The position numbers and the translations under genes are program-made. The notes beneath the pieces were generated by a model, which was given only the letters and a program-made list of their open reading frames with translations, had not been told where the DNA came from and searched no databases. Of a stretch of DNA of 25,986 nucleotides, positions 13,133 to 17,067 are shown piece by piece. This DNA comes from a virus: positions 1 to 25,986 of IMG/VR virus record IMGVR_UViG_3300008262_006041. The stretch is one strand, 5' to 3'. The first letter of the stretch is position 1. Each line of letters opens with the position of its first letter.

Positions 13133-13150
13133 CTTGCTTAACATAAGGAG
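13133..13150 (+). promoter_or_regulatory. ROSE-like RNA thermometer hairpin, dnaK
   Basis: CTTGCTTA (13133-13140), loop ACA, TAAGGAG (13144-13150). The stem has seven pairs including one U-G, with G13136 bulged, and it covers the whole Shine-Dalgarno. The UUGCU stretch opposite the ribosome-binding site with a bulged G is the defining feature of ROSE thermometers. Activity is inferred. Confidence 0.65.
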
Positions 13151-13156
13151 AGAACA

Positions 13157-15025
13157 ATGAGCAAAATCATCGGTATCGATTTGGGTACAACAAATAGCTG
13201 TGTAGCAGTAGTAGAAAATGGCACAGCAAAAGTTATCGAAAATTCAGAAGGCGCACGTACTACACCAAGTACTGTAGCTTACACAGAAAATGAAATTTTA
13301 GTTGGTGCTCCAGCTAAACGTCAAGCAGTAACTAATCCTAAGAACACAATCTACGCAGCCAAGCGTTTCATTGGACGTAAGTTTCAAGAAAGCCAAAATC
13401 ATCTTATGCCTTATGAAGTTATTAAGGCCAGTAACGGTGATGCTTGGATCAAAGCATTAGATAAAGAATTAGCACCTCCACAAATTTCAGCAGAAGTTCT
13501 TCGTAAAATGAAGAAGACCGCAGAGGACTATTTGGGCCATGAAGTTACCCAAGCAGTTATCACCGTGCCTGCGTACTTTAACGACAGTCAACGCCAAGCA
13601 ACCAAAGACGCTGGTAAGATTGCTGGCTTAGAAGTTCTGCGTATTATCAACGAACCAACAGCAGCAGCATTAGCTTACGGAGTTGATAAAGAAAGTAAAA
13701 AGGATCGTAAAGTTGCTGTTTATGATTTAGGTGGTGGTACATTTGATGTTAGTATTATCGAAATTGCTAATGTAGATGGCGACAAACAAATCGAAGTTCT
13801 TTCTACTAATGGTGATACATCTTTAGGTGGCGAGGATTTTGATAATCGTATTATTGATTATCTTGTTGCCGAATTTAAGAAAGAGTCGGGTGTTGATCTT
13901 AGCAAAGACGTTATGGCATTACAACGTCTAAAAGAAGCAGCAGAAAAAACTAAGATAGAATTAAGTAATAGTACACAAACTGATGTCAACTTGCCTTACA
14001 TTACTGCCGATGCTACAGGTCCTAAACATCTTAATGTAAAAATTACTCGCGCTAAATTAGAAAGTCTTGTAGACGATTTAATTCAGCGTAGTCTTGCTCC
14101 TTGCCGTCAGGCAATTAAAGATGCTAATGTCAGTGCCAGTGACATCGATGAAGTTATCCTTGTTGGTGGACAGACTCGTATGCCTAAAGTACAAGAAGAA
14201 GTTGAAAAGCTTTTTGGAAAGGCTCCACGTCGCGATGTTAATCCAGACGAAGCAGTGGCAGTAGGTGCTGCTGTTCAAGGTGCTGTATTAGGCGGTGATC
14301 GTAAAGACGTTCTATTGTTAGATGTTACTCCACTAAGTCTTGGTATCGAAACAATGGGCGGTATCTTTACTAAACTTATTAATAAGAACACTACTATTCC
14401 TACAAAGCATAGTCAGGTATTTTCTACTGCTGAAGATAATCAACCTGCTGTTACTATCAAAGTTGCTCAAGGCGAAAGAGAAATGTTTGCCTACAATAAA
14501 TCACTAGGCGAATTTAATCTAGAAGGCATCGCTCCGGCACGTAGAGGTCAACCACAAATCGAAGTTACTTTAGATATAGATGCTAACGGCATTATGCATG
14601 TTAGTGCTAAAGATAAGAACACTGGTAAAGAAAATAAAATTACTATTAAATCTAACAGTGGATTAACTGACGACGAAATTCAACAAATGGTTAAAGATGC
14701 CGAACTAAATGCCGAGTCAGATAAAAAACAAAAAGAAATCATCGAGACACGTAATCAAGCCGATGGTCTGGTTCACTCAATTAAAAATGATCTAAAAGAA
14801 GTCGAAGACAAATTAACTGAGGAACAAAAAACCTCAATTAATCAAGCTATAGCAGATGTAGAAACTGCTATGGTTGGTGATGACAAAGAAGTTATCACCG
14901 AAAAGTTGAATAACTTGTTTACAGCAAGTCAAGTTATTCAACAGGCAAAGTCCGCAGCTTCTAATGAATCCGGAGATGCTACTACAGTAGATGCGGAATT
15001 TAAAGAAGTTAAGGATCCAGCCTAA
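13157..15025 (+). CDS. dnaK: Hsp70 chaperone DnaK, full length
   Basis: A complete 622-aa Hsp70. The ATPase domain has [56 protein letters not shown] and [13 protein letters not shown]; the interdomain linker is [19 protein letters not shown]; the substrate domain and helical lid follow, and the tail ends [10 protein letters not shown], close to the bacterial DnaK end. No DnaJ or GrpE is seen in the window, so host co-chaperones would be needed. Beyond general folding, it might also act on the phage IscU, which keeps the Hsp70-recognition motif LPPVK. It is preceded by a late-type promoter and a ROSE-like hairpin. A full DnaK is rare in phages. Confidence 0.98.
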
Positions 15026-15029
15026 TAGT

Positions 15030-15050
15030 GTGTAACGCTCTGGGTTACAC
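15030..15050 (+). promoter_or_regulatory. Hairpin in the dnaK-groES gap
   Basis: Perfect 7-bp inverted repeat GTGTAAC (15030-15036) / GTTACAC (15044-15050), loop of 7, extendable by about three pairs. A weak T-rich run follows, so it may attenuate dnaK transcripts or form the upper part of a ROSE-type multi-hairpin leader for groES. Confidence 0.55.
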
Positions 15051-15057
15051 ATTTATT

Positions 15058-15074
15058 CTTGCTTAATAAAGGAG
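15058..15074 (+). promoter_or_regulatory. ROSE-like RNA thermometer hairpin, groES
   Basis: CTTGCTT (15058-15064), loop AATA, AAGGAG (15069-15074). Six pairs with one U-G and bulged G15061 cover the Shine-Dalgarno. It is the same element as before dnaK and hsp20, with a different loop. Confidence 0.65.
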
Positions 15075-15080
15075 AAAATT

Positions 15081-15368
15081 ATGACATATAGACCAATCCG
15101 AGATAGGATATTAGTAAAACCTGAAGATAAAGATAACGTTACTGCTTCCGGTATTTTTATTCCAGATAACGCAGCTGAAAAACCACTAAAGGGTAAAGTT
15201 CTAGCTGTAGGAACTGGTAAGGTAACCGAAGATGGAAATATTGTTCCATTGGTTATTAAAGAAGGCGACACAGTATTATTTGGCAAGTTTGCCGGACAAA
15301 CTGTAAAAATCAATGATGTCGAACATCTTATTATGAAAGAAGATGACATCATGGCTATTGTACAATAA
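15081..15368 (+). CDS. groES: Co-chaperonin GroES
   Basis: A complete 95-aa GroES, the heptameric lid of the GroEL chamber. It shows [36 protein letters not shown], including the mobile-loop segment (about residues 18-32) that contacts GroEL, and the closing [13 protein letters not shown]. This is a bacterial-type GroES and not the diverged T4 gp31 type. It lies 10 bases before groEL, giving the standard groESL order. Confidence 0.97.
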
Positions 15369-15378
15369 GGAGACAGAC

Positions 15379-16995
15379 ATGAACGCAAAAATCGTAACGT
15401 TCGGCGACGACAGCAGAACAAAACTCGTAGAAGGTGTTAATATACTTGCTAACGCAGTTAAAACTACTCTTGGTCCTAAAGGACGAAATGTAGTAATTGA
15501 AAAACCATTTGGATCTCCTGTGATAACCAAAGACGGTGTAACAGTGGCCAAAGAAATTATGTTAGAAGATAAACTTCAAAACATGGGTGCGCAAATGGTC
15601 AAAGAAGTAGCAGCTAAAACAGCAGACAAAGCAGGTGATGGCACTACTACAGCTACCGTATTGGCACAAAGTATCGTTCGTGAAGGAATGAAATTTGTAG
15701 CCGCAGGTATGAATCCAATGGACCTTAAAAGAGGCATCGATAAAGCGGTAGCAGCAGCAGTTGAAGAACTGTCTACTATTAGCAAACCTTGTACTACACA
15801 AAAAGAAATTCAACAAGTAGGTAGCATCAGTGCTAACAGTGATGAAAGTATTGGTAAGCTGATTAGCGATGCCATGCAGCGTGTAGGTAAAGACGGTGTC
15901 ATTACTGTAGAAGATGGCAAAGGTCTTCAAGACGAGTTGGATGTAGTAGAAGGCATGCAATTTGACAGAGGTTATCTAAGTCCATTCTTTGTTAATGTTC
16001 CTGAAAAACAATCAGTGGTATTACAAGATCCTTACATCTTATTAACAGATAAGAAAATTTCAAATGTAAGAGATTTACTTCCTGCTTTGGAAATTGTAGC
16101 TAAACAAGGCAAGTCATTGTTAATAATAGCCGAAGAAGTCGAAGGCGAAGCACTGGCTACTTTGGTAGTTAATACCATGCGAGGCATCATTAAGAGTTGC
16201 GCTGTTAAGGCACCCGGCTTTGGTGATCGTCGTAAAGCTATGTTAGAAGACATTGCTATTCTTACATCAGGAACAGTGATTACCGAAGAACTAGGTTATA
16301 ACTTAGAAAAAGTTTCAATCGAACATCTTGGTCGTGCTGCTCGTATTGAGATAGGCAAAGAAGCTACAATCATTATCGACGGTGTAGGCGATAAGGATAA
16401 AATCAATGAACGAGTAACGGCCTTACAAGTTCAAATGGAAGATACTACTAGCGATTATGACAAAGATAAAATTGCTGAACGTATTGCTAAGTTAGCTGGC
16501 GGTGTGGCTGTTATCAAAGTAGGAGCAGCTACTGAAACCGAAATGAAGGAAAAGAAGGATCGTGTAGATGATGCTCTACATGCTACTCGTGCTGCTGTAG
16601 AAGATGGTATTGTTGTTGGCGGTGGCGTAGCGTTAGTTCGTGCTCGTAAAGCTTTGGACAACGTTCACGGTAACAACACTGATCAAGAAGCAGGCATTAA
16701 AATTGTATGGCGTGCTCTTGAAGAACCAATTCGCACAATTACATCAAACGCAGGTGAAAGTGCTGATGTAGTAGTTTCTAAAGTGTTAGAAGGTAACGGT
16801 AATTTTGGTTACAATGCTGCTACAGGTGTATACGGCGATATGGTTGAGATGGGTATTATCGATCCAACTAAAGTTACAAAAACTGCTTTAATAAATGCTG
16901 CTAGTATTGCTGGTCTGTTATTGACCACAGACTGCGCAATTAACGAAGTACCAAAAGAAGAAAAATCATCAGACCCTAATATGGGAATGATGTAA
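15379..16995 (+). CDS. groEL: Chaperonin GroEL, full length
   Basis: A complete 538-aa Hsp60. It has the ATP site [12 protein letters not shown], the start [48 protein letters not shown], the apical and equatorial segments in order, and [11 protein letters not shown]. The C-terminus is short, SDPNMGMM, with a single GM unit in place of the repeated GGM tail lining the cavity in most bacterial GroEL. The start is ATG 15379 after AAGGAG; the in-frame ATG at 15343 lies inside groES. Full-length GroEL is known from a few large phages; here it comes with its own GroES. Confidence 0.98.
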
Positions 16996-17005
16996 ATTAT
17001 AGTTG

Positions 17006-17045
17006 TATAAATATTTGTGCGGTGCCCGGGTGGGGCCGCACAAAT
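17006..17045 (+). promoter_or_regulatory. Late-type promoter and 5' hairpin before hsp20
   Basis: A perfect TATAAATA (17006-17013) is followed by a 10-bp inverted repeat ATTTGTGCGG (17013-17022) / CCGCACAAAT (17036-17045). The predicted start near 17019 makes GCGG-CCC/GGG-CCGC a 5'-terminal stem-loop on the mRNA. Confidence 0.65.
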
Positions 17046-17049
17046 AATT

Positions 17050-17067
17050 CTTGCTTAATATAAGGAG
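17050..17067 (+). promoter_or_regulatory. ROSE-like RNA thermometer hairpin, hsp20
   Basis: CTTGCTTA (17050-17057), loop ATA, TAAGGAG (17061-17067). Seven pairs with one U-G and bulged G17053 cover the Shine-Dalgarno. ROSE elements are best known from small heat-shock genes, so this is the expected partner gene. Confidence 0.7.

Follow-up and report, generated by a model that had tools for sequence, protein, structure and literature searches.

A shared, probably heat-melted ROSE-type RNA element in the dnaK, groES and hsp20 leaders of a phage

We describe a two-hairpin RNA element that precedes three chaperone genes in IMG/VR virus record IMGVR_UViG_3300008262_006041, of which positions 1 to 25,986 were analyzed (this whole stretch of 25,986 nucleotides (nt) is referred to as the window). 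ROSE elements are RNA switches by which bacteria restrain heat-shock protein synthesis under cool conditions, and aquatic T4-like phages encode heat-shock chaperones themselves. Our principal conclusion, drawn with good though not complete confidence, is that the leaders of dnaK, groES and hsp20 each contain a cis-acting RNA element of the ROSE type, that these elements join the three genes into a phage chaperone regulon, and that they would be melted by heat. In each leader the sequence CTTGCTTA lies opposite the AAGGAG Shine-Dalgarno (SD) sequence, and the pattern CTTGCTTAN{1,6}AAGGAG matches the window at exactly three places (13133-13150, 15058-15074 and 17050-17067), as compared to a mean of 0.00 and a maximum of 0 sites in the shuffled window. 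A looser pattern, CTTGCTTN{2,8}AGGAG, returns the same three sites only, whose ends are spaced 6, 6 and 9 nt from the ATG codons of dnaK (13157), groES (15081) and hsp20 (17077), respectively. In all three leaders the bases facing the SD form a short hairpin (hairpin II) with the stem C-G, U-A, U.G, bulged G, C-G, U-A, U-A, which gains an extra A-U pair in dnaK and hsp20 and is closed by the loops ACA (dnaK), AATA (groES) and ATA (hsp20). Both the sequence and the model alignment place the bulged G between a U.G and a C-G pair, the same layout that is present in proven ROSE thermometers (PMC3669281, PMC11342760).

A second hairpin (hairpin I) was found by folding 5' of hairpin II in each of the three leaders; its core opposes Y-G-C-(C/U) to GG with a bulged G, at the position that this feature occupies in the Rfam family ROSE_3. 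The complete element thus consists of a bulged-G hairpin I (YGC..GG) followed by a hairpin II, where U(U/C)GCU is base-paired to the SD. A preliminary description of the window had reported CTTGCTT(A) facing the SD in these leaders, together with the stem pairs, bulged G and loops of hairpin II and the absence of the motif ahead of groEL and clpS; all of this is reproduced exactly, and the SD is predicted to be open in the two leaders that lack the element. It had also read the differing loops as the mark of a conserved structure. The loops do differ, but three sequences with identical stems prove little, so the evidence has to come from relatives. Hairpin I, which carries the bulk of the covariation, and a late-promoter motif 5' of the hsp20 and dnaK hairpins are additions to that description. 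The features of the locus, all on the plus strand, are as follows.

13075-13082 (+): possible T4-type late promoter of dnaK, AATAAATA, a less exact pattern match.
13086-13112 (+): dnaK hairpin I with a CGCC..GGG core and bulged G, from folding (leader z-score -3.9); the same core is present in relatives.
13114-13125 (+): extra short hairpin of the dnaK leader, GGACACGAGUCC, from folding; present in many relatives.
13132-13151 (+): dnaK hairpin II, UCUUGCUUA with UAAGGAGA, loop ACA, bulged G, from the sequence; covered by a match of model R1 (see below) at 13114-13153.
13157-15025 (+): dnaK (Hsp70) coding sequence, 622 residues, an open reading frame (ORF) with 64-68% identity to bacterial DnaK.
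15027-15053 (+): groES hairpin I with a CGC..GGG core, from folding and R1.
15056-15076 (+): groES hairpin II, UUCUUGCUU with AAGGAGAA, loop AAUA; R1 match at 15030-15076.
15081-15368 (+): groES coding sequence, 95 residues, an ORF.
15379-16995 (+): groEL coding sequence, an ORF, with no element and an open SD (accessibility 0.7); the motif is present in 0/16 viral groEL leaders.
17006-17013 (+): T4-type late promoter of hsp20, TATAAATA, a pattern match.
17014-17044 (+): hsp20 hairpin I, GUGCGG-U-G-CCC / GGG-G-CCGCAC, from folding and from the RF02523 and R1 alignments.
17048-17069 (+): hsp20 hairpin II, UUCUUGCUUA with UAAGGAGAA, loop AUA, bulged G, from RF02523 and R1.
17077-17517 (+): hsp20 coding sequence (IbpA-like small heat shock protein), 146 residues; phrog_432 Hsp20, E 2e-41.

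In the folded dnaK leader the anti-SD strand can also pair with codons 1-3 (UUGCUUA/UGAGCAA); as a general feature this pairing was rejected, since the Ser2 codon is AGU or UCU in other leaders.

Two covariance-model searches bear on the assignment to the ROSE family. The hsp20 leader (17016-17082) matches RF02523 (ROSE_3) with 44.4 bits against a gathering cut-off of 43, and the same family scores the hsp20 leaders of phages Melnitz and S-SKS1 at 34.1 and 27.9 bits, both under the cut-off. No match to the rhizobial ROSE family RF00435 or to ROSE_2 (RF01832) was found in the window at the family cut-offs. The FourU thermometer (RF01795) was considered and rejected, as it scores 14.8 bits against a cut-off of 60 and the anti-SD reads CUUGCUU rather than four U. 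We also built a model, R1, from 12 hsp20 leaders with loops of equal length, taken from other viral contigs only; MAFFT placed the SD of mixed leaders wrongly as a result of the variable loops, and the remaining leaders were therefore aligned by R1. Its three best matches in the window are the leaders of hsp20 (64.7 bits, E 6e-19), groES (42.4 bits, 9e-12) and dnaK (15.0 bits, 0.0056), and everything ranked below them is at chance level. Because a model seeded with hsp20 leaders alone ranks these three first, they represent one element despite the Rfam misses.

Covariation was assessed in 99 aligned R1 matches, in which 95.1% of cells are paired, although a model-fitted alignment favors the model's own structure. 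Both sides of a pair changed in 255 cells, as compared to 74 after shuffling and at most 59 when the partners were slid, and the covariation score is 0.415 versus 0.149. Nearly all of this signal lies in hairpin I, where 9/10 pairs are changed on both sides. The six core pairs of hairpin II are paired in every sequence, and the core is supported by conservation, by changes from U.G to C-G and by variation of the bulge or loop. The first outer pair of hairpin II, scored from sequence anchors only, is paired in 91/112 hsp20 leaders against 79.4 +/- 1.5 in shuffles, none of which (0/2000) reached this value. A regex-anchored test of hairpin I fell into wrong registers and was not used.

The element is present in about a hundred phage contigs and nearly confined to chaperone genes. 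A scan of viral contigs with TTCTTGCTTAN{1,7}AAGGAG yielded at least 130 sites in at least 118 contigs; 103 of the matches listed precede Hsp20, DnaK or GroES homologues, five further listed sites precede Hsp20 genes truncated at contig ends (judged by eye), and the roughly 20 of 130 listed sites that lack a chaperone downstream are mostly taken as chance. In two of the viral contigs (L026, L042) the motif lies 5' of an 81-residue ORF that starts MY(T/S)xxYGDFI(N/H)AMFDD and has no Hsp20 match. In a second sample, in which loci were picked by protein homology rather than by leader and distinct leaders were counted, the strict motif is present in 48/61 dnaK, 33/40 hsp20 and 6/14 groES leaders, as compared to none of 16 groEL leaders and 5 of 1467 leaders of other ORFs. 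Twelve of the 13 non-strict dnaK leaders read CUUACUU, which bulges an A and leaves the pairs unchanged, and the loose form (UYGCU ahead of GGA) occurs in 40/40 of the homology-sampled hsp20 leaders.

R1 was also run on about 5 Mb of whole virus records, made up of 6 isolates and 21 viral contigs of 100-383 kb; of these 27 records, 16 encode the T4 major capsid protein Gp23 above cut-off, indicating T4-like phages, several of them jumbo-sized. It found 39 places at E <= 0.1, and 37/39 lie ahead of dnaK, groES or hsp20: the next gene was checked for 30 and encodes Hsp20, DnaK or GroES in 30/30, and 7 were assigned to dnaK from their distance to an hsp20 match, which lies about 1.95 kb further downstream. 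One of the remaining two is a chance site in S-PM2. The other (L343; IMGVR_UViG_3300032322_002561, 205991-206044, minus strand) has a ROSE-like hairpin II (CTCGCTTAATTTCTAAGGAG) 5' of an 88-residue ORF of no clear Pfam family, possibly a non-chaperone member of the regulon. These data bear on an alternative in which strong AAGGAG leaders in AT-rich DNA resemble one another by chance. The leaders do share an SD, which is all that this explanation accounts for; it is refuted by the absence of sites in shuffles, the 5/1467 rate among other ORF leaders and the independent R1 matches.

Named phages show the same arrangement. The element precedes hsp20 in S-PM2, P-RSM4, S-CRM01, S-SKS1, C48C1, Melnitz, Mosig, HTVC103P and HTVC115P, and changes from UUGCU to UCGCU among these leaders convert the U.G pair to C-G. 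In S-CAM3 (L129) and S-SRM01 (L128) the element and SD lie ahead of an in-frame ATG other than the annotated hsp20 start, and the annotated S-SRM01 coding sequence takes in the leader; the annotated starts of both genes are probably wrong. Counted at the alternative ATG, these two bring the element to all isolates examined (11/11). The ROSE-like reading of the preliminary description is supported by the anatomy of the element, the hsp20 Rfam match, R1, conservation and the restriction to chaperone genes.

Occlusion of the SD by hairpin II is well supported in folding models. At temperatures up to 25 °C, the groES and hsp20 SDs have a predicted accessibility of 0.02-0.19 and the dnaK SD one of 0.17-0.35, as compared to 0.5-0.8 in the groEL and clpS leaders. 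Hairpin II alone has a predicted stability of -2.6 to -3.1 kcal/mol at 37 °C, and clear opening on warming is predicted for the dnaK leader together with 24 nt of coding sequence. Heat would then be the signal to which the leaders respond. Several observations weigh against the reading of the leaders as ROSE-type elements of a heat-responsive regulon. The nearest-neighbor model predicts only slight and slow opening of the hsp20 and groES leaders by 42-50 °C; it was used without the non-canonical ROSE pairs and, being ignorant of them, neither proves nor excludes thermometer behavior. Four of the six hairpin II core pairs are invariant and two vary on one side only, and the first outer pair shows no covariation in dnaK. 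RF02523 matches neither the dnaK nor the groES leader even at E up to 5, and the element was found neither in 8 divergent groES leaders nor ahead of huge-phage dnaK genes. The contigs of the viral scan are often related, and its counts are therefore not independent events.

The small predicted melting of the hsp20 and groES leaders below 50 °C would suit a constitutive role without temperature sensing, in which the structure attenuates the SD, acts as a 5' protective hairpin or shields GGAG from a RegB-type nuclease; the predicted position of hairpin I at the extreme 5' end, beside a late promoter, is also that of a common stabilizer. Such tuning needs no UYGCU/bulged-G signature, yet this signature persists in Pseudomonas, SAR11 and phages while loop length varies from 1 to 7 nt, and the element is almost restricted to heat-shock genes. 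We consider this explanation unlikely.

The sequence of the T4 late promoter is TATAAATA, with the core ATAAATA. Of 42 phage dnaK leaders, 38 have this core within 16 nt 5' of hairpin I, where 1 would be expected; among hsp20 leaders the figure is 30/115, with 0.9 expected. In the window alone, late-promoter-type matches (WATAAATA) are no commoner than chance, the dnaK sequence AATAAATA is weak by itself and groES has no late-promoter box. If the late promoter is used, the RNA would start at hairpin I. These positions point to late transcription of dnaK and hsp20, and groES would be transcribed by read-through from dnaK. In the mechanism that we propose, the resulting 5' untranslated regions (UTRs) would begin with hairpin I, a scaffold that is stable and contains a bulged-G core itself, and continue into a marginally stable hairpin II, in which U(U/C)GCU would pair with the AAGGAG SD across the bulged G and block ribosomes when the cell is cool. 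Warming would melt hairpin II, such that DnaK, GroES and Hsp20 are produced together, and GroEL would probably be made by translational coupling downstream of groES.

The RNA could also be read by a protein. The phage Hsp20 or the host IbpA may bind the two-hairpin RNA and keep translation of hsp20, dnaK and groES repressed for as long as it is not titrated by unfolded protein, with heat as one trigger and late-infection folding load as another. A precedent exists in E. coli, where IbpA represses its own translation via the ibpA 5' UTR in a manner that requires Arg93 and an aromatic residue at Tyr34 (PMC10474464). The Arg93 position is arginine in 168/173 phage Hsp20 proteins, the Tyr34 position is tyrosine or phenylalanine in those displayed (aligned by eye), and the bulged-G core of hairpin I is kept across three genes, beyond the needs of a plain scaffold. 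However, Lys98, which is required in E. coli, is not kept (mostly Thr/Ser), the Arg97 position is arginine in only 109/173, and Arg93 is usual in proteobacterial IbpA and so may reflect ancestry. We regard a protein reader as possible; it is compatible with a thermometer rather than opposed to it and would allow an aggregation-sensing loop to act in addition to heat. More speculatively still, T4-like aquatic phages may possess their own heat-shock regulon, controlled post-transcriptionally, with one element on dnaK, groES and hsp20 beside late promoters that senses temperature and, through binding of the phage Hsp20, folding load, and that yields virion-assembly chaperones only when they are needed.

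We know of no explanation for the role of hsp20 in T4-like cyanophages. An SD-occluding, probably heat-gated leader on hsp20, dnaK and groES would tell when the phage wants chaperones, a question that can be tested in cultured isolates (S-PM2, Melnitz and Mosig), and it suggests that temperature influences infection at the level of translation. The gene has been termed a core gene of these phages (PMC9004378). Searches of the open-access literature yielded no description of a phage ROSE element, and within the same literature the remark of the preliminary description that no such phage chaperone regulon is known holds. The Melnitz paper (PMC9004378) and a jumbo-phage overview (PMC7824862) mention hsp20 and no thermometer, and an Rfam search of S-CREM1 reported wcaG, manA and glnA and no ROSE (PMC9964418); Rfam screens of cyanophages can overlook the element. 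The kind of RNA element is known, and what is new is its phage setting, its several targets per genome and its probable connection with late transcription. Phage RNA thermometers, so far a few cases on single genes, would thereby come to include a conserved viral regulon.

Other genes of the window were noted in passing. A permuted two-piece transfer-messenger RNA (tmRNA; 22767-23163, plus strand; ARAGORN, RF04321 103 bits) encodes the tag ANVSTFKFWQSPVSIAANDEAFALAA; tmRNA is also present in the related contigs L137, L297 and L308, and Melnitz has been reported to carry one (PMC9004378). Directly after hsp20-clpS lie a heme oxygenase-like gene (17869-18411, plus strand, by eye) and an ORF that matches ferredoxin-dependent bilin reductase (18404-19087, plus strand, Pfam Fe_bilin_red), possibly a bilin pigment pathway like phage PcyX/PebS systems. 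A fatty acid desaturase (11500-12237), IscU-like and IscA-like Fe-S assembly proteins (5562-5984 and 5935-6255) and a PAAR protein (4435-4725) are encoded on the plus strand.

Bacterial relatives bear on the origin of the element. UYGCU..GGA is present in 40/43 distinct bacterial hsp20 leaders, mostly from SAR11 (Alphaproteobacteria), where the hairpin I core UCGCC..GGGG and CUUGCUUA..AAGGAG are shared with the phage element. Unlike in phages, the SAR11 element is on hsp20 only among the leaders examined, and by the UYGCU..GGA test these bacterial genomes have none ahead of dnaK or groES. Three alphaproteobacterial dnaK leaders, two of them rhizobial (L435, L436 and L440, the third from Aquisalinus), form a hairpin and carry CUGCU 5' of GGAG; they have no Rfam ROSE match and may be an undescribed ROSE relative on bacterial dnaK. 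R1 matches whole bacterial genomes weakly (best 20 bits), which indicates that the phage model is a poor bacterial detector. In an unrooted tree built from few columns, SAR11 Hsp20 (L346-L425) groups with that of pelagiphage Mosig (L121) inside the phage Hsp20s, which suggests that the hsp20 gene and its leader passed between phage and host, in either direction. This grouping, together with the shared SAR11 element, would fit leaders that travelled with chaperone genes taken from the host and lack a phage role. We consider that highly improbable: the SAR11 dnaK and groES leaders examined lack the element that the phage ones carry, and the strong stem covariation requires selection after acquisition. 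As far as the present data go, the spread of the element to dnaK and groES took place in phages.

Among known systems, the phage thermometers named in the Robo-Therm paper are only lambda cIII, SPbeta blyA and a fourU 5' of a Caudoviricetes sigma70 gene (PMC11182007). These too are phage mRNAs with a temperature-gated translation start, but cIII has another fold, blyA and sigma70 use fourU, and all are single genes, none of which controls chaperones. The rhizobial ROSE (RF00435) and enterobacterial ROSE_2 (RF01832) share the pairing of U(U/C)GCU with the SD and the bulged G, but are longer, with 3-4 hairpins. The short ROSE of Pseudomonas ibpA (RF02523, ROSE_3; PMC3669281) differs in other respects, as the phage-borne elements are also found on dnaK and groES within one genome, adjoin T4-type late promoters rather than sigma32 ones, have an AU-rich outer stem in hairpin II, bulge an A in one clade and mostly fall below the Rfam cut-off. 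Its architecture is nonetheless that of the phage leaders: a stable bulged-G hairpin I followed by a short hairpin II, in which U(U/C)GCU pairs with the SD around a bulged G and leaves the start codon unpaired, 5' of an IbpA-type gene.

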